Shown piece after piece: positions 29,866-43,044 of a DNA stretch of 64,000 bases (the first letter of the stretch is position 1; each line of letters opens with the position of its first letter). The notes beneath the pieces were generated by a model. The model searched no databases and had not been told where the DNA came from. It saw only the letters and a program-made list of their open reading frames with translations. The position numbers and the translations under genes were made by a program. The stretch lies in assembly GCA_018816945.1 (NCBI GenBank), contig JAHIVC010000027.1:1-64000 (forward strand). Direction: 5' to 3'. The stretch comes from Bacteroidota bacterium. Its GTDB lineage: Bacteria; Bacteroidota; Bacteroidia; Bacteroidales; GCA-2711565.

Positions 29866-30033
29866 GTACAAAAAAGCTGACTAGAATGAGTAGTTTTCAA
29901 TTCAAAACATTTTTCATTGACCCATAATAAGTGACAAATTAATAGTTTATTATAGATGAGATTTACGATTTATACTTAAAAAGAAACATTCTCTTTTTAT
30001 TTTTTTAAATTTTGAGATGATTACTATTTTTTC

Positions 30034-30063
30034 TTGATATTTTATAAAAACTATTTACATTTG
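30034..30063 (+). promoter_or_regulatory. Promoter of the arginine leader/operon
   Basis: TTG (30034-30036) as -33 box, a 19-base spacer, then TACATTTG (30056-30063) as -7 box. This is the best-matched promoter in the window and lies 9 bases before the leader ORF ATG, so the 5' untranslated part is only a few bases. Confidence 0.75.
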
Positions 30064-30072
30064 CCCCCATCT

Positions 30073-30183
30073 ATGGATAAGACAACGACATACCAGATTT
30101 TAAAACTACAGCATATGCATGTAGCCGGTATTGTTACGCCTTTAACTTCCTTATTAAGACATAGACGCCCGTCCCGGGCATAA
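30073..30183 (+). CDS. Candidate arginine leader peptide (36 aa)
   Basis: A 36-codon ORF beginning MDKTTTYQILKLQ and ending LLRHRRPSRA. Four of its last eight codons are arginine: AGA at 30157 and 30163, CGC at 30166, CGG at 30175. It begins 9 bases after a well-formed promoter and stops 84 bases before the first gene of an arginine biosynthesis operon. The arginine codons lie in and beside a GC-rich hairpin (30167-30179), and a second hairpin follows the stop. This is the layout of a ribosome-mediated attenuator, in which ribosomes stalled for arginyl-tRNA change the downstream RNA fold. The peptide itself need have no function. I know of no described family for it; the call rests on context. 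Confidence 0.65.
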   Translation: MDKTTTYQILKLQHMHVAGIVTPLTSLLRHRRPSRA

Positions 30184-30210
30184 TTTATTTTGCAGGGTTA
30201 CGTACCCTGC
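30167..30210 (+). promoter_or_regulatory. Attenuator-like hairpins before the arginine operon
   Basis: Hairpin 1: GCCCG (30167-30171) with CGGGC (30175-30179), loop TCC, covering the last arginine codons. Hairpin 2: GCAGGGT (30192-30198) with ACCCTGC (30204-30210), loop TACGT. CGTCCC (30170-30175) could instead pair with GGG and ACG in 30195-30202, breaking both hairpins. The T-tract after hairpin 2 is poor, so it may work by a route other than classical intrinsic termination. Confidence 0.5.
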
Positions 30211-30266
30211 CGTTTCATTATACATTCTCGTATTTATTACATTTTTAATCTAAGATTTTAGTTTCA

Positions 30267-30932
30267 ATGAAAATTATAGTAAGTGTGGCTAATGTTAGTC
30301 ACCTAAAATTTGCTGCTTCAATTTGCAAGATGATTGAAGAAGCATCAAAAATAAGAGGTACCGGTATTGCCAAACGTGAACCGGCTTATATAAGCCAAAA
30401 AATCACCGAAGGCAAATCTGTGATTGCAACCCATAACGATCAAGTGGTTGGTTACTGTTACATCGAAAGTTGGGAAGGGCAGAAATTTGTTGCCAATTCA
30501 GGACTCATCGTACATCCTGATTATCGCAAAACGGGCCTTGCAAGAGAAATCAAAAGTGCCATCTTCGAATTGTCGGTTAAAAAATTCCCGAATGCCAAAC
30601 TTTTCGGGATCACTACCAGTTTAGCCGTGATGAAAATTAACTCCGACCTAGGTTACAGGCCGGTAACATTTGCTGAACTCACCATGGATGATGCATTCTG
30701 GAAAGGTTGTGAAGGTTGTGTTAATCATGATATACTGATGCGTACAAAGCGAAGCATGTGTTTATGTACAGGGATGGTTTGTGTCCCTTCAGCATTGCCA
30801 ATAAATAATTACCAGGTCAGAAGGAAAATATCCTGGGAAAATTTCAAAATTTTTCTTGTCGAACGCAGAAAACGATTAAAAACCAAATCAAAAGAATATC
30901 CAATTTTAAAAAAGTTTGAAAATGAAAAATAA
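30267..30932 (+). CDS. GNAT acetyltransferase, probable N-acetylglutamate synthase of the arginine operon
   Basis: A 221-residue GNAT protein, first gene of the arginine operon. The acetyl-CoA fold is visible: IATHNDQVVGYCYIESWE, then the pyrophosphate loop region VHPDYRKTGLAREIKSAIFE. The C-terminal part has an unusual cysteine cluster, GCEGC and MCLCTGM. In Bacteroidota a GNAT protein of this size at the head of arginine genes is thought to replace ArgA and acylate glutamate; some members of the phylum use succinyl instead of acetyl groups, and sequence alone does not decide which. It overlaps argG by 11 bases. The ATG at 30267 follows the leader hairpins by 57 bases. Confidence 0.82.
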   Translation: MKIIVSVANVSHLKFAASICKMIEEASKIRGTGIAKREPAYISQKITEGKSVIATHNDQVVGYCYIESWEGQKFVANSGLIVHPDYRKTGLAREIKSAIFELSVKKFPNAKLFGITTSLAVMKINSDLGYRPVTFAELTMDDAFWKGCEGCVNHDILMRTKRSMCLCTGMVCVPSALPINNYQVRRKISWENFKIFLVERRKRLKTKSKEYPILKKFENEK

Positions 30933-32118
30933 TAAGGTAGTGCTTGCGTATAGCGGAGGGCTGGATACTTCATACTGTTTAAAGTATTTGGTGAAAGAAA
31001 AAAAATTAGAGGTTTATTCCGCCATTGTAAATACAGGAGGTTTTTCTGAGGATGAACTTAATCAACTTGAAGAGAAAGCCTATACTTTGGGGGCAACCCA
31101 GCATATTTGCTTACAAGAAACCGAAGCATATTATGAGAAAATCATAAAATATTTAATTTATGGCAATGTTTTAAAGAATAATACTTATCCTTTATCGGTA
31201 AGTGCTGAAAGGGTGTACCAGGCAATTTCACTGGTTAAATATGCGAAGCAAATAAAAGCAGGATCTATTGCTCATGGAAGTACAGGTGCCGGAAATGATC
31301 AGGTCCGTTTTGATTTGATTTTCCAACTAATTGCGCCTGGAATTAAAATCTTAACGCCAACCCGCGATTTGCAGCTTTCTCGTGAAAATGAAATCCTTTA
31401 TTTGAAAAAGAACGGATTCGAAATCAATTTAAAAACATCTGAATACTCCATTAACAAAGGTTTATGGGGAACGAGTGTTGGCGGCAAGGAAACACTTACT
31501 TCTCATCAATCATTGCCTGAAAATGCCTATCCCAGTCAAGTAATTGAAACAAAACCAAAGCAAATTAAAATTGAATTTAGAAATGGTCAGCTGTATGGGT
31601 TGAATCGAAAAAAAATGACACCGATAGCGTGCATACAGTCATTAGAAGCAATTGCAAAAGAATATGCAATAGGGCGGGATATTCATGTTGGGGATACTAT
31701 TATCGGGATAAAAGGCAGGGTTGGTTTCGAAGCAGCTGCAGCAAGTATTATCATTAAGGCACATCACCATCTTGAAAAACATACCTTATCAAAATGGCAA
31801 CTACATTATAAAGAACAAATTGCAAGTTGGTACGGAATGTTTATCCACGAGTCCCAGTACCTTGATCCGGTCATGCGAAATTTAGAAGCCTTTTTGGAAG
31901 ATTCTCAAAAGTATGTGTCAGGAATTGTGAATATTGAATTACATCCATACAGGTTTAATATCCTCGGTATTAAATCTCAGCATGACTTAATGAATCCTGA
32001 ATTTGGATCTTATGGCGAAATGAATCGTGATTGGAGCAGTGATGATGTAAAAGGATTCACAAAAATTTTGGCCAACCCTATTCGAATTTTTAACAAAGTA
32101 AATAAGATATCATGTTAA
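30922..32118 (+). CDS. argG: Argininosuccinate synthase
   Basis: A 398-residue ATP-dependent ligase starting MKNNKVVLAYSGGLDTSY; a TTG two codons upstream (30916) is possible but unneeded. The PP-loop AYSGGLDTS, the substrate segment IAHGSTGAGNDQVRFD, and SEYSINKGLWGTSVGGKE match ArgG. It joins citrulline and aspartate with ATP to make argininosuccinate, the seventh step of arginine synthesis. It overlaps the GNAT gene upstream by 11 bases and argC downstream by 7, so the three are translationally coupled. Confidence 0.96.
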   Translation: MKNNKVVLAYSGGLDTSYCLKYLVKEKKLEVYSAIVNTGGFSEDELNQLEEKAYTLGATQHICLQETEAYYEKIIKYLIYGNVLKNNTYPLSVSAERVYQAISLVKYAKQIKAGSIAHGSTGAGNDQVRFDLIFQLIAPGIKILTPTRDLQLSRENEILYLKKNGFEINLKTSEYSINKGLWGTSVGGKETLTSHQSLPENAYPSQVIETKPKQIKIEFRNGQLYGLNRKKMTPIACIQSLEAIAKEYAIGRDIHVGDTIIGIKGRVGFEAAAASIIIKAHHHLEKHTLSKWQLHYKEQIASWYGMFIHESQYLDPVMRNLEAFLEDSQKYVSGIVNIELHPYRFNILGIKSQHDLMNPEFGSYGEMNRDWSSDDVKGFTKILANPIRIFNKVNKISC

Positions 32119-33089
32119 AGGTAGGCATAATCGGAGGCAGCGGATTCGTAGCCGGCGAATTAATCAGGTGTTTGCTTCATCACCCAGAAGTAAAGATCGA
32201 TTTTGTTTATAGTCACACGAATGCAGGGGAACCGATCAATAAAATTCATCAGGATTTGTTTGCATATCCAGATTTGAAATTTACAGACAAAGTCAATTTA
32301 AATGCAGATGTTGTATTTCTTTGCCTTGGTCACGGTAATTCAATGAAGTTTTTAGAACAACATCAATTTTCAGCAAAAACAAAAATCATCGATTTAAGTA
32401 ATGATTTTCGTTTGGAAAATGATGCTAATTTCAGCGACAGAAAATTTATCTACGGACTGGTAGAATTGAACAAGCATAAAATTGAGACCGCTCAAAATAT
32501 TGCCAGTCCGGGCTGTTTTGCAACAGCGATTCAGTTAGCCGTATTACCCCTCATTAAATATTCAGCAGTATTGAATGATCTTCATATTAGTGCCATTACC
32601 GGATCTACCGGGGCAGGTCAATCATTAACCCAAACAACTGCCCATAGCTGGAGAACCAACAATATTTCTGTTTACAAAGCTTTCACGCACCAGCACCTTG
32701 CAGAAATAAAAGAAACAATTTCCGGTTTCAGGGATTCAGAAACTCAGGAAATTAATTTCATTCCTTACAGAGGGGATTTCACACGCGGAATTTTCTCGAG
32801 CATTTATACCGAATCGGAATACAGTGAAAAAGAGCTTGTAGCGATGTATAAAGATTTTTATAAGGATGCAATGTTTACCCATATTACTATGAACGAACTC
32901 AATCTCAAACAAGTAGTAAATACAAATCACTGCTTAATCCAGGTACAGAAAATCGGGAATAAGGTACTCATCAATTCAGCCATCGATAATTTATTGAAAG
33001 GGGCAGCAGGGCAGGCCATTCAAAATATGAACCTCATGTGTGGACTTGATGAATCGTTGGGATTGAAGTTAAAGGCAAATTATTTTTAG
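32112..33089 (+). CDS. argC: N-acetyl-gamma-glutamyl-phosphate reductase
   Basis: A 325-residue NADP-dependent reductase. The Rossmann start is KVGIIGGSGFVAGELIRCL, and the catalytic cysteine is in NIASPGCFATAIQLA near residue 136. TGSTGAGQSL and FTHQHLAEI are further family marks, and the C-terminal half has VLINSAIDNLLKGAAGQAIQNMN. It reduces the acyl-glutamyl phosphate made by ArgB to the semialdehyde. The ATG lies inside the end of argG (7-base overlap). A 19-base gap leads to argD. Confidence 0.96.
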   Translation: MLKVGIIGGSGFVAGELIRCLLHHPEVKIDFVYSHTNAGEPINKIHQDLFAYPDLKFTDKVNLNADVVFLCLGHGNSMKFLEQHQFSAKTKIIDLSNDFRLENDANFSDRKFIYGLVELNKHKIETAQNIASPGCFATAIQLAVLPLIKYSAVLNDLHISAITGSTGAGQSLTQTTAHSWRTNNISVYKAFTHQHLAEIKETISGFRDSETQEINFIPYRGDFTRGIFSSIYTESEYSEKELVAMYKDFYKDAMFTHITMNELNLKQVVNTNHCLIQVQKIGNKVLINSAIDNLLKGAAGQAIQNMNLMCGLDESLGLKLKANYF

Positions 33090-33108: not shown

Positions 33109-34254
33109 ATGAAAATGTTTGATGTTTATCCACGATACCCAATCAATATCGTAAAAAGCAAAGGTGTCTATCTCTGGGACGACAAAGATCAGAAATACCT
33201 TGATTTATATGGCGGACATGGAGTTATCTCCATTGGACATGCCCATCCGGCATATCTTTCAGCCATTCAAAAACAAATTAAAAAAATAGGGTTTTATTCC
33301 AATTCTATTGAAATTCCATTACAACAGGAATTTGCTGATCTATTATCGGATTTGAGTTCCTACGATAGCTATAGATTGTTTTTATGTAATTCGGGTTCAG
33401 AAGCCAACGAAAATGCCCTAAAGCTCGCTTCGTTCCATAGCGGGAAAAAAAAGGTTATTGCATTTAAGAACAGTTTTCACGGTAGGACTTCTGCCTCTGT
33501 TAATGTTACGAATCAGCCTAATATTTCCGCACCGATTAATAAAGAACAATTTCCGGTTGATTTTATTGAACTGAACAATGAAATACAGTTGTTTGATAAG
33601 CTAAATACTGATGATATATGTGCCGTAATAATTGAAGGAATACAAGGAGTCGGAGGGCTTGATATGGCATCGGAAACCTATTTAAAATTGCTTTCCAATC
33701 TTTGCATCGAAAAAGGGATCGTCCTGATCATTGATGAAATCCAAAGTGGATTTGGCAGGAGCGGGAAGTTTTTTGCTCACCAACATACAGGAATCAAAGC
33801 TGATATAATTACAATGGCCAAGGGAATGGGTAATGGATTTCCTGTTGCAGGATTACTTATCAACCCTGCCATAAAAGTTAAGCATGGCATGCTCGGAACT
33901 ACATTTGGGGGTAATCACCTGGCATGCGCCGCAGGAATTTCTGTAGTAAAAACACTTAGAAAGGAAAAACTGATTGAAAATGCGGAAAAGATAGGCAAGC
34001 TGTTAGTAAACGAACTCAAAAAGATTCCGTCAATCAAACAAATAAAAGGAAAAGGCTTGATGCTGGGTGTTGAATTTGAGTTTGCAGCCAAACCGATTCT
34101 CGAACGACTCTTAATTGAACATCATATTTTTACCGGATCATCTGCCAATCCAAATCTGTTGAGGATATTACCTCCGTTATCGATTACATATGAGGAAATC
34201 AAAGTTTTTCCGGAAGCTCTAAAAAGTGTTTTAAAATCAATGAAGCAGGAATAA
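33109..34254 (+). CDS. argD: Acetylornithine (acylornithine) aminotransferase
   Basis: A 381-residue class III aminotransferase. Marks are YLDLYGGHGVISIGHAHP, the cofactor phosphate site FLCNSGSEANENALKLA, KNSFHGRTSASV, the PLP aspartate in LIIDEIQSGFGRSGKFFA, and the Schiff-base lysine in ITMAKGMGNGFP near residue 243. GTTFGGNHLACAAG follows. It transaminates the semialdehyde from ArgC to N-acylornithine. Two ATG codons (33109 and 33115) could start it. The stop overlaps the argB ATG in TAATG. In many relatives the carbamoyltransferase gene comes next; here it does not. Confidence 0.95.
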   Translation: MKMFDVYPRYPINIVKSKGVYLWDDKDQKYLDLYGGHGVISIGHAHPAYLSAIQKQIKKIGFYSNSIEIPLQQEFADLLSDLSSYDSYRLFLCNSGSEANENALKLASFHSGKKKVIAFKNSFHGRTSASVNVTNQPNISAPINKEQFPVDFIELNNEIQLFDKLNTDDICAVIIEGIQGVGGLDMASETYLKLLSNLCIEKGIVLIIDEIQSGFGRSGKFFAHQHTGIKADIITMAKGMGNGFPVAGLLINPAIKVKHGMLGTTFGGNHLACAAGISVVKTLRKEKLIENAEKIGKLLVNELKKIPSIKQIKGKGLMLGVEFEFAAKPILERLLIEHHIFTGSSANPNLLRILPPLSITYEEIKVFPEALKSVLKSMKQE

Positions 34255-35033
34255 TGAAAACACAACTGGATATCATAAAGATTGGTGGAAATTTGATTGA
34301 TGACGAATCTTCTTTAACCAACTTTCTAAACCATTTCTCTGCAAACAAAACCTTGAAAATTCTGGTTCATGGAGGAGGAAGATCAGCTACTCAACTAAGC
34401 GAAAGGCTAGGTATTAAGACTCAAATGCTAGAAGGAAGAAGAATTACCAATGAGGAAGATCTGGAGGTTGTTACGATGGTTTACGCGGGATTGATCAACA
34501 AGAAGATCGTGGCAGAACTCCAGCATTATGGTTGCAACGCCATTGGTTTATCAGGTTGTGACATGAATAGTATTTTAGCAAAAAAACGGCATCATCCTTA
34601 TATTGATTTTGGCTTTGTTGGCGATATCGAGAAGGTAAATGTCAGTAACATCGACCTGTTGTTAAAAAATGGATTTTGCCCAGTGTTTTCGGCCATCACG
34701 CACGATGGCCGAGGACAATTGCTAAATACGAATGCTGATACGGTAGCCGCTCAACTTGCCATTTCGTTCAGTGAAACTTATAATGTCAGGTTGTTATATT
34801 GTTTTGAGAAAAATGGTGTGTTGTCAAACCCGGAAGATGATTTTTCTGTCATTCCTTTTTTAGATAAAGATCTTTATCAGGAGTTGAAAACAGCTGGAGC
34901 AATATCAAAAGGGATGATCCCAAAATTGGATAATTGTTTTGAAGCACTCGTGATGGGTGTATCTGAAATTAACATTGGTGGTTCCGGAATGATGAATCCA
35001 ATAGCTTTTAATTTTACTAAATTGTCACTTTAG
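34254..35033 (+). CDS. argB: Acetylglutamate (acylglutamate) kinase
   Basis: A 259-residue amino-acid kinase with DIIKIGGNLIDD at the start, the glycine-rich substrate loop LVHGGGRSATQLSERLG, GRRITNEEDLEVVTMVYAG, the nucleotide-side AGAISKGMIPKLDNCFEAL, and a final INIGGSGMM. It phosphorylates N-acylglutamate, the second step of the pathway. Members of this phylum may prefer N-succinylglutamate. There is no N-terminal extension of the kind associated with arginine-inhibited ArgB, so feedback control at this enzyme is uncertain. It starts within the argD stop and is followed 2 bases later by argE. Confidence 0.94.
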   Translation: MKTQLDIIKIGGNLIDDESSLTNFLNHFSANKTLKILVHGGGRSATQLSERLGIKTQMLEGRRITNEEDLEVVTMVYAGLINKKIVAELQHYGCNAIGLSGCDMNSILAKKRHHPYIDFGFVGDIEKVNVSNIDLLLKNGFCPVFSAITHDGRGQLLNTNADTVAAQLAISFSETYNVRLLYCFEKNGVLSNPEDDFSVIPFLDKDLYQELKTAGAISKGMIPKLDNCFEALVMGVSEINIGGSGMMNPIAFNFTKLSL

Positions 35034-35035
35034 AT

Positions 35036-36097
35036 ATGGATATACATATACTTAAAAAAGAATCAATTGAATTATTAAAACAATTGGTTTCAACTCCATC
35101 TTTTTCAAGCGAAGAAATGGAAACAGCAGCTTTAATCATTTCATATTTCGGGTCAAAGAAAATTGAAATTTCAAGAAACAAAAATAACGTTTGGGTACAT
35201 AACAAATATTTTAATGAACTAAAACCAACAATACTTTTAAATTCTCACCATGATACTGTCAGGCCAAATGAGGGTTATAAAAGAGATCCGTTTGATGCTC
35301 AAATTCTAGACGGAAAGTTATTCGGACTGGGAAGTAATGATGCAGGAGCAAGCCTGGTTTCATTGTTGGCTTTATTCATGCATTTTTATGAACGGGAAGA
35401 TTTGAAGTATAACTTAATATTTTCGGCAACAGGTGAAGAAGAAAGTTCAGGAACAAATGGGCTGAATAGTATTCTTCAGTATTTACCCGAATTGGATTTT
35501 GCGGTTGTTGGGGAGCCTACGGGCATGCAGCTTGCCATTGCAGAAAAAGGCTTATTGGTTATCGATGCTTATGCTCCCGGAATTGCCGGGCACGCTGCAC
35601 ATTCAAATACCGATAACGCCATTTATAATGCAATACAGGATATTGATTGGATCAGAAATTACGAATTTTCAGAAATTTCTGAATTACTTGGTAAAGTAAA
35701 AATGACCGTAACACAAATTGATGCCGGAAGGGAACATAATGTAGTTCCGGGTACCTGTCATTTTACAATAGATGTTAGGGTTACTGAGAAATATAGTAAT
35801 CGGGAGGTTTTTAAATATATTGATAAGCACACGATTAGTAAATTAAAGGCCAGATCCTTTAACCTCAATTCTTCATCCATAAATCCCAATCATGCAATTG
35901 TAAAGGCAGGGGTGGAGTCGGGCCGTAAAACCTATGGATCACCAACATTATCAGATCAATCGGTACTTGACTGTCCGTCATTAAAGCTAGGACCAGGCGA
36001 ATCTACCCGATCTCATCAGGCTGATGAGTTCATTAAAATTGAGGAGATCAATGAAGCCATAGATTTATATATAAAAATATTTGATAAAATACTTTAA
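35036..36097 (+). CDS. argE: Acetylornithine deacetylase-type M20 metallopeptidase
   Basis: A 353-residue M20 family hydrolase. The metal ligands are visible: LLNSHHDTV near residue 70, GLGSNDAGASLVSLLAL near 101, and the catalytic ATGEEESSGTNGL near 132, with VVGEPTGMQLA and the dimerisation part GIAGHAAHS. LGPGESTRSHQADE gives the final histidine. In the operon it should remove the acyl group from N-acylornithine or, in relatives with an acylornithine carbamoyltransferase, from N-acylcitrulline. Specificity is inferred from context. It begins 2 bases after argB. Confidence 0.92.
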   Translation: MDIHILKKESIELLKQLVSTPSFSSEEMETAALIISYFGSKKIEISRNKNNVWVHNKYFNELKPTILLNSHHDTVRPNEGYKRDPFDAQILDGKLFGLGSNDAGASLVSLLALFMHFYEREDLKYNLIFSATGEEESSGTNGLNSILQYLPELDFAVVGEPTGMQLAIAEKGLLVIDAYAPGIAGHAAHSNTDNAIYNAIQDIDWIRNYEFSEISELLGKVKMTVTQIDAGREHNVVPGTCHFTIDVRVTEKYSNREVFKYIDKHTISKLKARSFNLNSSSINPNHAIVKAGVESGRKTYGSPTLSDQSVLDCPSLKLGPGESTRSHQADEFIKIEEINEAIDLYIKIFDKIL

Positions 36098-36107
36098 ATA
36101 ATTTAAG

Positions 36108-37394
36108 ATGAAACTTTGGGATAAAGGGTTTGATACCCATCAAAAGATAGAAAAATTTACGGTTGGAAACGATCGTATTTTAGATTTGAAACTGGCAAAA
36201 TTTGATGTGATCGGAAGCATGACACATGCTGAAATGCTTGCCAAAATAGGAATTCTAAAACAGGCAGAACTTAAGGAGATAATATCGGGATTGGCAACAA
36301 TTGCTGAAAATATCGAAAATGATTCTTTCACCATTGAAAACGATTTTGAAGATGTACATAGTAAGATTGAATTCGAACTGACTGCAATGATTGGAGATGC
36401 AGCCAAGAAAATTCATACTGCACGATCGCGAAACGATCAGGTTTTGGTTGCTTTGCATTTATATATCAAAGATGAGATCATGAAGATTAAGGCTTTGATG
36501 GAAACCCTCTTCAATACACTGATTGGATTAAGTGAAAAATATCAGACGGTCCTGATGCCAGGGTACACCCATTTCCAAATTGCCATGCCATCATCGTTTG
36601 GATTATGGTTTTCGGCCTATGCGGAGAACTTAATTGATGATGTCATCATGCTTAATGCTGCCTTCAAAATTGCAGATCAAAATCCATTAGGTTCAGCGGC
36701 AGGTTATGGAAGCTCGTATCCCATCGATCGTCAAATGACTACTGATTTGCTTGGTTTTGAAACCTTAAAATACAATGTGATTGCAGCACAGATGAGCAGA
36801 GGCAAACTTGAAAAAACCTTATCCTTTGCCTTATCTTCGTTAGCTTTAACCTTGTCGAAATTTGCAATGGATATTTGCTTAAATAATAGTCAGAATTTTA
36901 AATTTATCAGTTTTCCAAACGAACTGACCACGGGTTCCAGCATCATGCCTCACAAAAAAAATCCTGATGTATTTGAATTGATCCGGGCCAATTGTAATAG
37001 AATCCAGGCATTGCCCACACAAATTTCTATGATAACTACAAATCTTCCTTCTGGTTATCATCGTGATTTCCAAATATTAAAAGAGGAAATCATGAATTCA
37101 ATCGATTTAATGAAGGATAATTTAGAAATTTTCAATTTCATGATATCAAAAATTGAAATTAACACAACAATTTTGTTCGATCCGATTTACGACAGTCTTT
37201 ACAGCGTTGAAGAAGTAAATAAACTCGTGATGCAAGGAATAAGCTTCAGGGAAGCATATAAAAAAGTAGCTCATGACATTGCTTCAGGAGATTACTCGCC
37301 CGATAAAATATTGAAGCATACACATATAGGCAGCATTGGCAATCTATGTTTGGACAAGATTAAGGATAAGTTTGATAAATATAACAAGCTTTAA
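36108..37394 (+). CDS. argH: Argininosuccinate lyase
   Basis: A 428-residue member of the fumarase/aspartase superfamily. Marks are EDVHSKIEFELT, HTARSRNDQVLVALHLY, MPGYTHFQIAMPSSFGLW, SAAGYGSSYPIDR and the superfamily signature GSSIMPHKKNPDVFELIRA near residue 283. It splits argininosuccinate into arginine and fumarate, the last step. It is the last gene of the operon, 10 bases after argE. I see no clear terminator before the convergent unknown gene 31 bases on. Confidence 0.96.
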   Translation: MKLWDKGFDTHQKIEKFTVGNDRILDLKLAKFDVIGSMTHAEMLAKIGILKQAELKEIISGLATIAENIENDSFTIENDFEDVHSKIEFELTAMIGDAAKKIHTARSRNDQVLVALHLYIKDEIMKIKALMETLFNTLIGLSEKYQTVLMPGYTHFQIAMPSSFGLWFSAYAENLIDDVIMLNAAFKIADQNPLGSAAGYGSSYPIDRQMTTDLLGFETLKYNVIAAQMSRGKLEKTLSFALSSLALTLSKFAMDICLNNSQNFKFISFPNELTTGSSIMPHKKNPDVFELIRANCNRIQALPTQISMITTNLPSGYHRDFQILKEEIMNSIDLMKDNLEIFNFMISKIEINTTILFDPIYDSLYSVEEVNKLVMQGISFREAYKKVAHDIASGDYSPDKILKHTHIGSIGNLCLDKIKDKFDKYNKL

Positions 37395-42840: not shown

Positions 42841-43044
42841 ATGGATGGAACTAAAAAAGCAAATATCAAGATTGGCTCAGAAGTTAAAATTGTGCTTAAA
42901 GAAGATCAGCGAAGTGGAGCATTAACTGAAGGATTTGTAAAAAATATCTTAACAAAATCCACTGAGCATCATCATGGAATTAAGGTAAGGCTGGAGGATG
43001 GGCGGATTGGCAGGGTGAAAGAAATAATTTTGAATGATGAATGA
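42841..43044 (+). CDS. YwbE family protein (DUF2196)
   Basis: A 67-residue beta-rich protein covering the whole YwbE/DUF2196 family: IKIGSEVKIVLKEDQRSGAL, then TEGFVKNILTKS and HHHGIKVRLEDGRIGRVKEI. The family is widespread in Firmicutes and Bacteroidota and has an SH3-like or KOW-like look, but its function is not known. It is a monocistronic gene, with its own promoter element and followed by a GC-rich hairpin. Confidence 0.9.
   Translation: MDGTKKANIKIGSEVKIVLKEDQRSGALTEGFVKNILTKSTEHHHGIKVRLEDGRIGRVKEIILNDE

Follow-up and report, generated by a model that had tools for sequence, protein, structure and literature searches.

In the window, that is, the whole 64,000-nucleotide stretch of Bacteroidota DNA analysed here, the region in front of the GNAT-argGCDBEH operon is a probable arginine leader-peptide attenuator, the switch of which is possibly non-classical. 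We consider it likely that this region is a ribosome-stalling arginine sensor of the operon, with premature transcription termination without a U-run as its end point. The arginine-sensing half of this reading is supported by comparison with related genomes.

Leader ORF, promoter, and operon

All features described here lie on the forward (+) strand. The candidate promoter consists of a TTG (30034..30036), which by its sequence is a candidate −33 element, and, after a spacer of 19 nt, the Bacteroidota-type −7 box TACATTTG (30056..30063; TAnnTTTG, following the consensus in the accessible part of PMC7366714). An ATG 9 nt past the box opens a leader ORF of 36 codons (30073..30183, with the TAA ending at 30183), the predicted peptide of which is MDKTTTYQILKLQHMHVAGIVTPLTSLLRHRRPSRA. 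Four of its last eight codons specify arginine, namely AGA at codon 29 (30157..30159), AGA at codon 31 (30163..30165), CGC at codon 32 (30166..30168), and CGG at codon 35 (30175..30177). The TTG, the box, the 19-nt spacer, the ATG 9 nt later, and the 36-codon ORF had all been proposed in a first-pass annotation, and their positions match to the base; the four Arg codons that it named can likewise be read in the sequence. A leader ORF with several codons for the end-product amino acid near the promoter is a feature of classical attenuators, and it is found here in the sequence, with translation predicted. The ATG is located 6–9 nt past the −7 box in 17 of 23 curated leaders, including that of the window, and the 5′ UTR would therefore comprise only a few bases; it is probably very short, with the putative transcription start placed from the sequence. 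According to the accessible part of PMC7366714, about 3.7% of the 5′ UTRs of B. thetaiotaomicron are shorter than 10 nt.

Among the box-linked short ORFs on both strands of the window (12–60 codons, with the start 3–36 nt past a TAnnTTTG box), 2 of 21 have at least three Arg in the last 15 codons, and one of the two is the arg leader. The other is linked to a box at 43025, and its start lies inside the end of a 67-codon ORF. By itself, this count is only suggestive of a real arg leader, and the case beyond chance is carried by the relatives, not by the ORF count in the window.

The operon begins with a gene for a GNAT-family acetyltransferase (30267..30932; PF00583/PF13508), followed by argG, for argininosuccinate synthase (30922..32118; PF00764 and PF20979, searched from 30925), and by genes for an argC-like semialdehyde dehydrogenase (32112..33089; PF01118/PF22698), an argD-like class III aminotransferase (33109..34254; PF00202), an argB-like amino acid kinase (34254..35033; PF00696), an argE-like M20 deacylase (35036..36097; PF01546), and an argH-like lyase (36108..37394; PF00206). 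The products match the Pfam families expected for the GNAT-argG-argC-argD-argB-argE-argH operon that had been claimed to follow the leader. The upstream neighbour of the arg promoter is a 608-codon GTPase-like ORF, which we take to be a GTPase of the TypA/BipA kind, and a GGATGG..CCATCC hairpin with a T-run, recognised by eye, lies between this ORF and the promoter. The arg operon of the window may have been acquired horizontally. In the five other genomes of the same genus (G001–G005, some of which are incomplete), an argG match was found in G004 only, at 50% identity, with argR-like stretches nearby.

Hairpins of the leader

Folding confirmed both of the hairpins that had been proposed, one over the Arg codons and one at 30192–30210. 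Hairpin 1 (GCCCG-TCC-CGGGC; 30167..30179) overlaps the last Arg/Pro codons, and hairpin 2 (GCAGGGT-TACGT-ACCCTGC; 30192..30210) starts 8 nt past the leader stop, contains UNCG in its loop, and is followed by a weak T tail. The whole leader folds mildly better than its shuffles (z = −1.79), with 10 of 200 shuffles equally low.

The compensatory hairpin changes for which an alignment of relatives had been suggested are present in hairpin 2. Across nine loci (the window, L107, L190, L027, L043, L108, L109, L110, and L112), 98.4% of the cells are paired, four of the seven pairs have changed on both sides, and the covariation score was reached by none of 500 shuffles. In this group, the loop reads U-N-C-G, with N being A, C, or U, and the stem starts 8–11 nt past the leader stop; over the 11 loci compared, hairpin 2 starts 8–12 nt past the stop codon in 10. 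Hairpin 1, compared in eight loci, has three invariant middle pairs, its outermost pair is broken in two loci and its innermost in four, and from these alignments it appears less well supported than hairpin 2.

The T-run had already been described as weak, and this description holds: the tail of hairpin 2, CGTTTCAT, is poor in T and no T-richer than its surroundings, with a mean of 3.5 T per 8 bases against a background of 3.7 over 11 loci. A permissive terminator scan (5 T in an 8-base window, 0–2 bases past the stem) lists both hairpins of the window, but by this comparison of tails over 11 loci no intrinsic terminator with a U-run lies between the leader and GNAT of the window. In the stretch from hairpin 2 to GNAT, C exceeds G in 9 of these 11 loci. 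Hairpin 1 could conceivably act as a terminator and was set aside in this role, its tail, ATAATTTATTTT, being U-rich yet interrupted. We also rejected hairpin 2 as a general terminator of its own genome, where a covariance model built from eight loci (R1) found the arg copy only, with 150 of 753 first-look candidates scored. The covariance models of Rfam 15 gave no match in the whole window at the gathering thresholds and none in 29990–30300 at E-values up to 5, so that no known RNA family (T-boxes, riboswitches, and amino acid leaders) was recognised.

Arg leaders in relatives

Our comparison covered 134 GNAT loci from related genomes, 68 without and 66 with an adjacent argR. Adjacent argR genes were called by tblastn with two argR proteins, a procedure that a very divergent argR could escape, and the 68 may include GNAT copies that are not the first gene of an arg operon. 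Loci with fewer than 150 upstream bases were left out, as was L128, which is identical to L060 near GNAT. The leader rule was fixed as a TAnnTTTG box at most 360 bases from GNAT, the first ATG 3–36 nt later, a length of 12–60 codons, and at least three Arg in the last 15. Such a leader was found in 19 of the 68 loci without adjacent argR versus 0 of the 66 that have one (Fisher p = 9e-7, ignoring relatedness), and widening the search to 900 bases upstream in the argR-adjacent loci again gave an Arg leader in 0 of 66. Other box-linked short ORFs in the same loci reach at least three late Arg in 12 of 156 cases (Fisher p = 2e-4, relatedness ignored). These loci are related and mostly metagenome-assembled, so that the counts are not independent, and 49 of the 68 loci without adjacent argR have no such leader by the fixed rule. 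The conserved leader ORF and Arg codons that were to be sought in relatives are thus present in part of the loci without adjacent argR.

The leaders vary widely in sequence. L107, whose GNAT is the closest to that of the window (73% identical), carries the leader MNKTLTYSNPKLQALRLDCISMPLFTYRSYRRPFGA, of the same length and layout as that of the window, and other leaders end in ...NNFRRFRRPFAGV (L043), ...NYRHVRRRA (L042), ...SLNRRESRR (L123), and ...GIRVRRGSSAASVLVRI (L147). A further leader, MGNKDTYQILSELQAPANGMAHYPALSRPLFPRRRSA, was found with R1 in a GNAT-argG context in another order (L190). Matches to R1 at E-values up to 0.5 occurred in 80 of 393 genomes of the order and 73 of 395 of the class and were mostly weak; those inspected were loci L161–L218 only. 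The match at L190 has an E-value of 3e-5, and L166 has one of 1e-5 although it matches none of the seven arg proteins of the window; because this locus scored so well, L190 counts by its context and leader and not by its E-value. Including f63, the Arg leaders fall under nine family codes (f1, f9, f20, f63, f65, f75, f94, f100, and f143). The named records among the relatives are mostly Bacteroidales, and of the leader-bearing loci, L030 is labelled Calditrichaceae and L043 Flavobacteriaceae.

For peptide composition, we used 23 hand-curated leaders from the 134 GNAT loci. These comprise 18 of the 19 with at least three Arg (L139, a 15-codon ORF, was left out) and five with two Arg (L027, L028, L108, L109, and L150); L118 and L148 (two Arg) and L117 (missed by the rule) stand outside the set. 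Arg accounts for 68 of 276 residues (24.6%) in the last 12 positions and for 11 of 379 (2.9%) in the rest of the peptide. The regulatory Arg codons are thus kept while the rest of the peptide diverges, as in classical attenuators, and the expectation of conserved Arg amid varying residues is borne out by Arg that stays near the stop in diverged peptides. Over the last 15 positions, there are 75 Arg codons, namely CGA (23), CGG (13), AGA (12), AGG (11), CGC (9), and CGT (7); all six Arg codons are in use, so that conservation concerns the amino acid and not its spelling. A functional small protein was rejected, since the peptides share little beyond Arg except inside close groups.

Other structures were seen in some of these loci. 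In L147 and L150, a stem spans the leader stop, and its GAGGG loop could pair with a downstream CCCTC in a possible pseudoknot recognised by eye. In L042, L060, L078, L093, and L126, a small CAGG-loop-CCTG hairpin without a T-run, unlike hairpin 2, lies 40–50 nt past the stop. Other hairpins are predicted in this group, including one over the Arg codons, and 1 of 19 pairs has changed on both sides.

ArgR and ARG-box-like sites

Arginine genes are a textbook case of control by the repressor ArgR, and argR lies directly upstream of GNAT in many of the relatives. ARG-box-like sites scoring at least 20 of 22 occur upstream of argR in 60 of 66 loci versus 2 of 21 leader loci (L107 and L125); the model was drawn by eye from some of the same argR loci, so that the 60 of 66 is partly circular and it is the contrast that matters. 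Before the operon of the window, the best score is 16 of 22, which 998 of 1000 shuffles equalled, and ArgR control of this operon was rejected because no ARG-box-like site rises above the shuffled level. As a point against the favoured reading, L107 has an ARG-box-like site of full score in addition to its Arg leader.

Another point against it is that the genome of the window contains an intact argR of 151 codons on contig C97, with a full-score ARG-box-like site before it; the sole argG match of this genome is the copy in the window. ArgR is thus present in the genome, but the arg operon of the window seems to be outside its reach, and the leader peptide probably stands in for ArgR control of this operon. 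On C97 (L158:6076-7535), a second GNAT gene adjoins the intact argR, and the site at GNAT scores 21. The two kinds of predicted control also occur together in genome G171, which has Arg leaders at L118 and, at L159, a GNAT-argG locus with argR and an upstream ARG-box-like site.

Antiterminator folding and classical controls

The first-pass annotation had proposed that CGTCCC (30170..30175) pairs with parts of 30195–30202 (GGG..ACG) when the ribosome stalls. We folded the leaders with a ribosome placed at the late Arg codons; ten were folded as full transcripts, and eleven, together with three classical Arg controls, as partial transcripts. Folded in full, each of the ten shows hairpin 2 at all of the stalls run, with the first four pairs at 0.80 or above and the fifth down to 0.63 (L028); without a ribosome, L107 is predicted to form it weakly (0.65) and L112 not at all (0.07–0.17). 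These full-transcript folds fail to separate the models, because the classical leader of L117 and the first of L118 also keep their terminators, and partial transcripts are the better test because they show what forms before the terminator is completed.

In partial transcripts of the window, the candidate antiterminator forms with a stall at codon 29, at a mean pairing probability of 0.82 and −8.0 kcal/mol, and fades to 0.41, 0.34, and 0.00 at codons 31, 32, and 35. With a slightly shorter end, the values are 0.71 (−6.4 kcal/mol) at codon 29 and then 0.35, 0.28, and 0.01. Pairing of the 5′ arm of hairpin 2 with upstream RNA reaches at least 0.75 in two of the eight group relatives (L190 and L109), peaks at 0.38–0.51 in L043, L110, and L112 (where some early Arg stalls lay outside the runs), and stays at 0.00–0.04 in L107, L027, and L108. 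Two more distant leaders gave 0.84 (L028) and 0.41 (L114). Consensus folding with hairpin 2 forbidden gave no alternative helix involving hairpin 2. The proposed CGTCCC pairing is therefore predicted for a stall at codon 29, weakens or disappears at the other Arg codons, and is poorly conserved in the group. More broadly, comparison supports the arginine-sensing leader through the kept Arg, the compensated hairpin 2, and the exclusion of adjacent argR, whereas its change of fold is a candidate, predicted for codon 29 and not conserved.

The same procedure recovered classical attenuators in the same genome. The leader MTFNKLHHHHFHTGTQARRN before hisG (L219, on C97) contains HHHHFH, the trpE leader MKNIVLNNWWWSFNTR (L220, on C15) contains WWW, and ilvD (L221, on C101) is preceded by a tandem pair of Ile/Leu/Val leaders. 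Each of these four leaders has a T-run terminator of its own and a predicted antiterminator, the latter with mean pairing probabilities of 0.72–0.81 (his), 0.56–0.62 (trp), and 0.90 and 0.96–0.97 (ilv); the pairing in the window at codon 29 (0.71–0.82) exceeds that of the trp leader. Classical Arg attenuators were found in family f63 (L117 and L118), where Arg leaders with T-run terminators and antiterminators precede GNAT-argC-argD; their antiterminator probability is 0.83–0.98 at most stalls, dropping to 0.54 and 0.01 at the final two stalls in L117. L118 carries a tandem pair of these attenuators, MKSIFQNPYRRFIKFIT and MNRYYKNPCRRCLPGL, approximately 300 bases before its GNAT gene, the start of which is near 1965. 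The arg leader of the window takes the place that a classical attenuator would occupy, but the folds tie a predicted antiterminator at best to one codon, without conservation, and there is no T-run.

Proposed mechanism and alternatives

In the mechanism that we favour, RNA polymerase would start just past the TACATTTG box, so that the first AUG would lie almost at the 5′ end of the RNA, and a ribosome would translate the 36-codon leader. With ample Arg-tRNA, the ribosome would pass the Arg cluster and leave at the stop codon, and once it had gone, hairpins 1 and 2 would fold and most transcripts would end before GNAT. With scarce Arg-tRNA, it would stall on AGA/AGA/CGC/CGG and block hairpin 1, and transcription would run on into the operon. 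We infer premature transcription termination as the outcome by analogy; against it count the tail of hairpin 2, which is no T-richer than its surroundings, and the lack of a conserved antiterminator in the folds. In the least certain step, termination would take place at hairpin 2 or shortly past it, with no U-run and perhaps with the help of Rho or a polymerase pause, Rho being the likeliest helper.

How the stalled ribosome acts may be explained in several ways. Stall-controlled Rho termination, in which the stalled ribosome covers the C-rich leader end and Rho loads once it has gone and stops transcription before GNAT, is somewhat unlikely. It would fit the lack of a U-run terminator, the excess of C over G that 9 of 11 loci show in the stretch from hairpin 2 to GNAT, and, in the accessible part of PMC6386406, the combination of an Arg-codon leader ORF and Rho control in Salmonella speF; the stretch, however, is simply AT-rich, its C and G counts are small and come without control regions, and some of the C-rich leader end would be buried in hairpin 1. 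A classical trp-type attenuator, with hairpin 2 as the terminator and CGTCCC (30170–30175) pairing with its 5′ half upon a stall, appears unlikely. The codon-29 stall does fold in this way (0.82; 0.71), above the trp leader of the same genome, classical Arg attenuators exist in f63, and the survival of hairpin 2 in full transcripts is not counter-evidence, as L117 and the first L118 leader behave likewise. Against this, the pairing is lost or weak at the other three Arg codons, it is below 0.55 at the stalls run in six of the eight other group members, and the U-run of the his, trp, and ilv terminators of this genome is absent.

It is about equally improbable that, at hairpin 2, the stalled or terminating ribosome governs not termination but the decay of the RNA or a pause of the polymerase. 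Such a role would fit the position of hairpin 2, which in 10 of 11 loci lies 8–12 nt past the stop and thus immediately in front of a terminating ribosome, and the accessible part of PMC6386406 describes arginine-dependent RNA decay via alternative folds for speF. That there is no sensor at all, the Arg codons being a by-product of GC-rich hairpins or the ORF untranslated, is very improbable. Hairpin 1 is itself made of CGC/CCG/CGG letters, and 12 of 156 other box-linked ORFs have at least three Arg; yet 53 of the 75 late Arg codons of the curated leaders are CGA, AGA, AGG, or CGT, Arg leaders exclude adjacent argR, and the ATG is 6–9 nt past the box in 17 of 23 leaders. The ribosome-stalling arginine sensor with termination lacking a U-run remains our preferred reading. 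Tentatively, and with less confidence than would favour it over its opposite, this device may represent a separate kind of switch that works by ribosome position alone, without an antiterminator (by Rho exclusion, pausing, or decay), and that replaces ArgR in several Bacteroidota lineages; it would combine a near-leaderless RNA, Arg codons over hairpin 1, and a covarying UNCG hairpin lacking a U-run 8–12 nt past the stop, while his, trp, and ilv in the same cell stay classical.

Comparison with known systems

Ribosome-mediated attenuation uses leader peptides with codons of the end-product amino acid, and leader-peptide attenuation is already known as a kind of control. The arg leader resembles the his, trp, and ilv attenuators in its promoter-proximal short ORF with end-product codons, its hairpins, and the biosynthetic operon that follows. 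In its own genome, however, the ATG of the his, trp, and first ilv leaders is 20–25 nt past the box, against 9 nt in the arg leader, and the T-run terminators of the his, trp, and two ilv leaders lie 25–46 nt past the stop, whereas hairpin 2 lies 8 nt past it and has no T-run. The his, trp, and ilv leaders also have a predicted antiterminator, whereas that of the arg leader is predicted at a single Arg codon, the first in the cluster, and is not conserved. In many relatives, the gene for ArgR/AhrC directly precedes these GNAT-arg genes and is itself preceded by ARG-box-like sites; unlike the leader, ArgR/AhrC is a DNA-binding repressor, and the operon of the window has no ARG-box-like site above shuffles.

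According to the accessible part of PMC6386406, orf34 of Salmonella speF is a 34-codon leader in which pausing at Arg codons in low arginine raises expression, and no Rho-independent terminator was found there. In the same text, speF differs in that it controls ornithine decarboxylase and not arginine synthesis, senses arginine through a pair of Arg codons at positions 12–13, acts also via the speF ribosome-binding site and RNase G, and belongs to another phylum. The DUF2618 core of orf34 (HIRRT.HIMM, by its description in that part of PMC6386406) is absent from the window peptide on direct reading. In Flavobacterium psychrophilum, of the same phylum, structured 5′ leaders before amino acid operons offer clues for leader-peptide attenuation; the conserved elements named in section 19, in the accessible part of PMC9723704, are those of pheA and hisG, with no arginine gene. 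The tandem CGG codons of E. coli argA were proposed as a sensor of arginyl-tRNA supply for an arginine-synthesis gene (accessible part of PMC10325894); unlike the present case, they lie inside the enzyme coding region, come from a model with positive feedback, and involve no leader peptide. A paper from 2010, in its accessible part, presented a Firmicutes case and stated that, as far as its authors knew, leader peptide systems other than ermC had until then been shown only in Proteobacteria and Actinobacteria (PMC2965389). We found no description of a leader attenuator of an arginine biosynthetic operon in the open-access literature searched, to which subscription papers are mostly external; a 2010 survey (Lopatovskaya and others) might hold one.

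Significance for Bacteroidota

Bacteroidota lineages appear to differ in how they control the same arg operon, some using ArgR and others a leader peptide. Both kinds occur in one genome at least once (G171), so that the exchange of repressor for attenuator is open to direct testing. Leader attenuation in Bacteroidota is little described in the accessible literature, and translation starts in this phylum do not rely on Shine–Dalgarno sequences. An arg device without a classical U-run terminator would therefore raise the question of how Bacteroidota turn a stalled ribosome into an expression decision.
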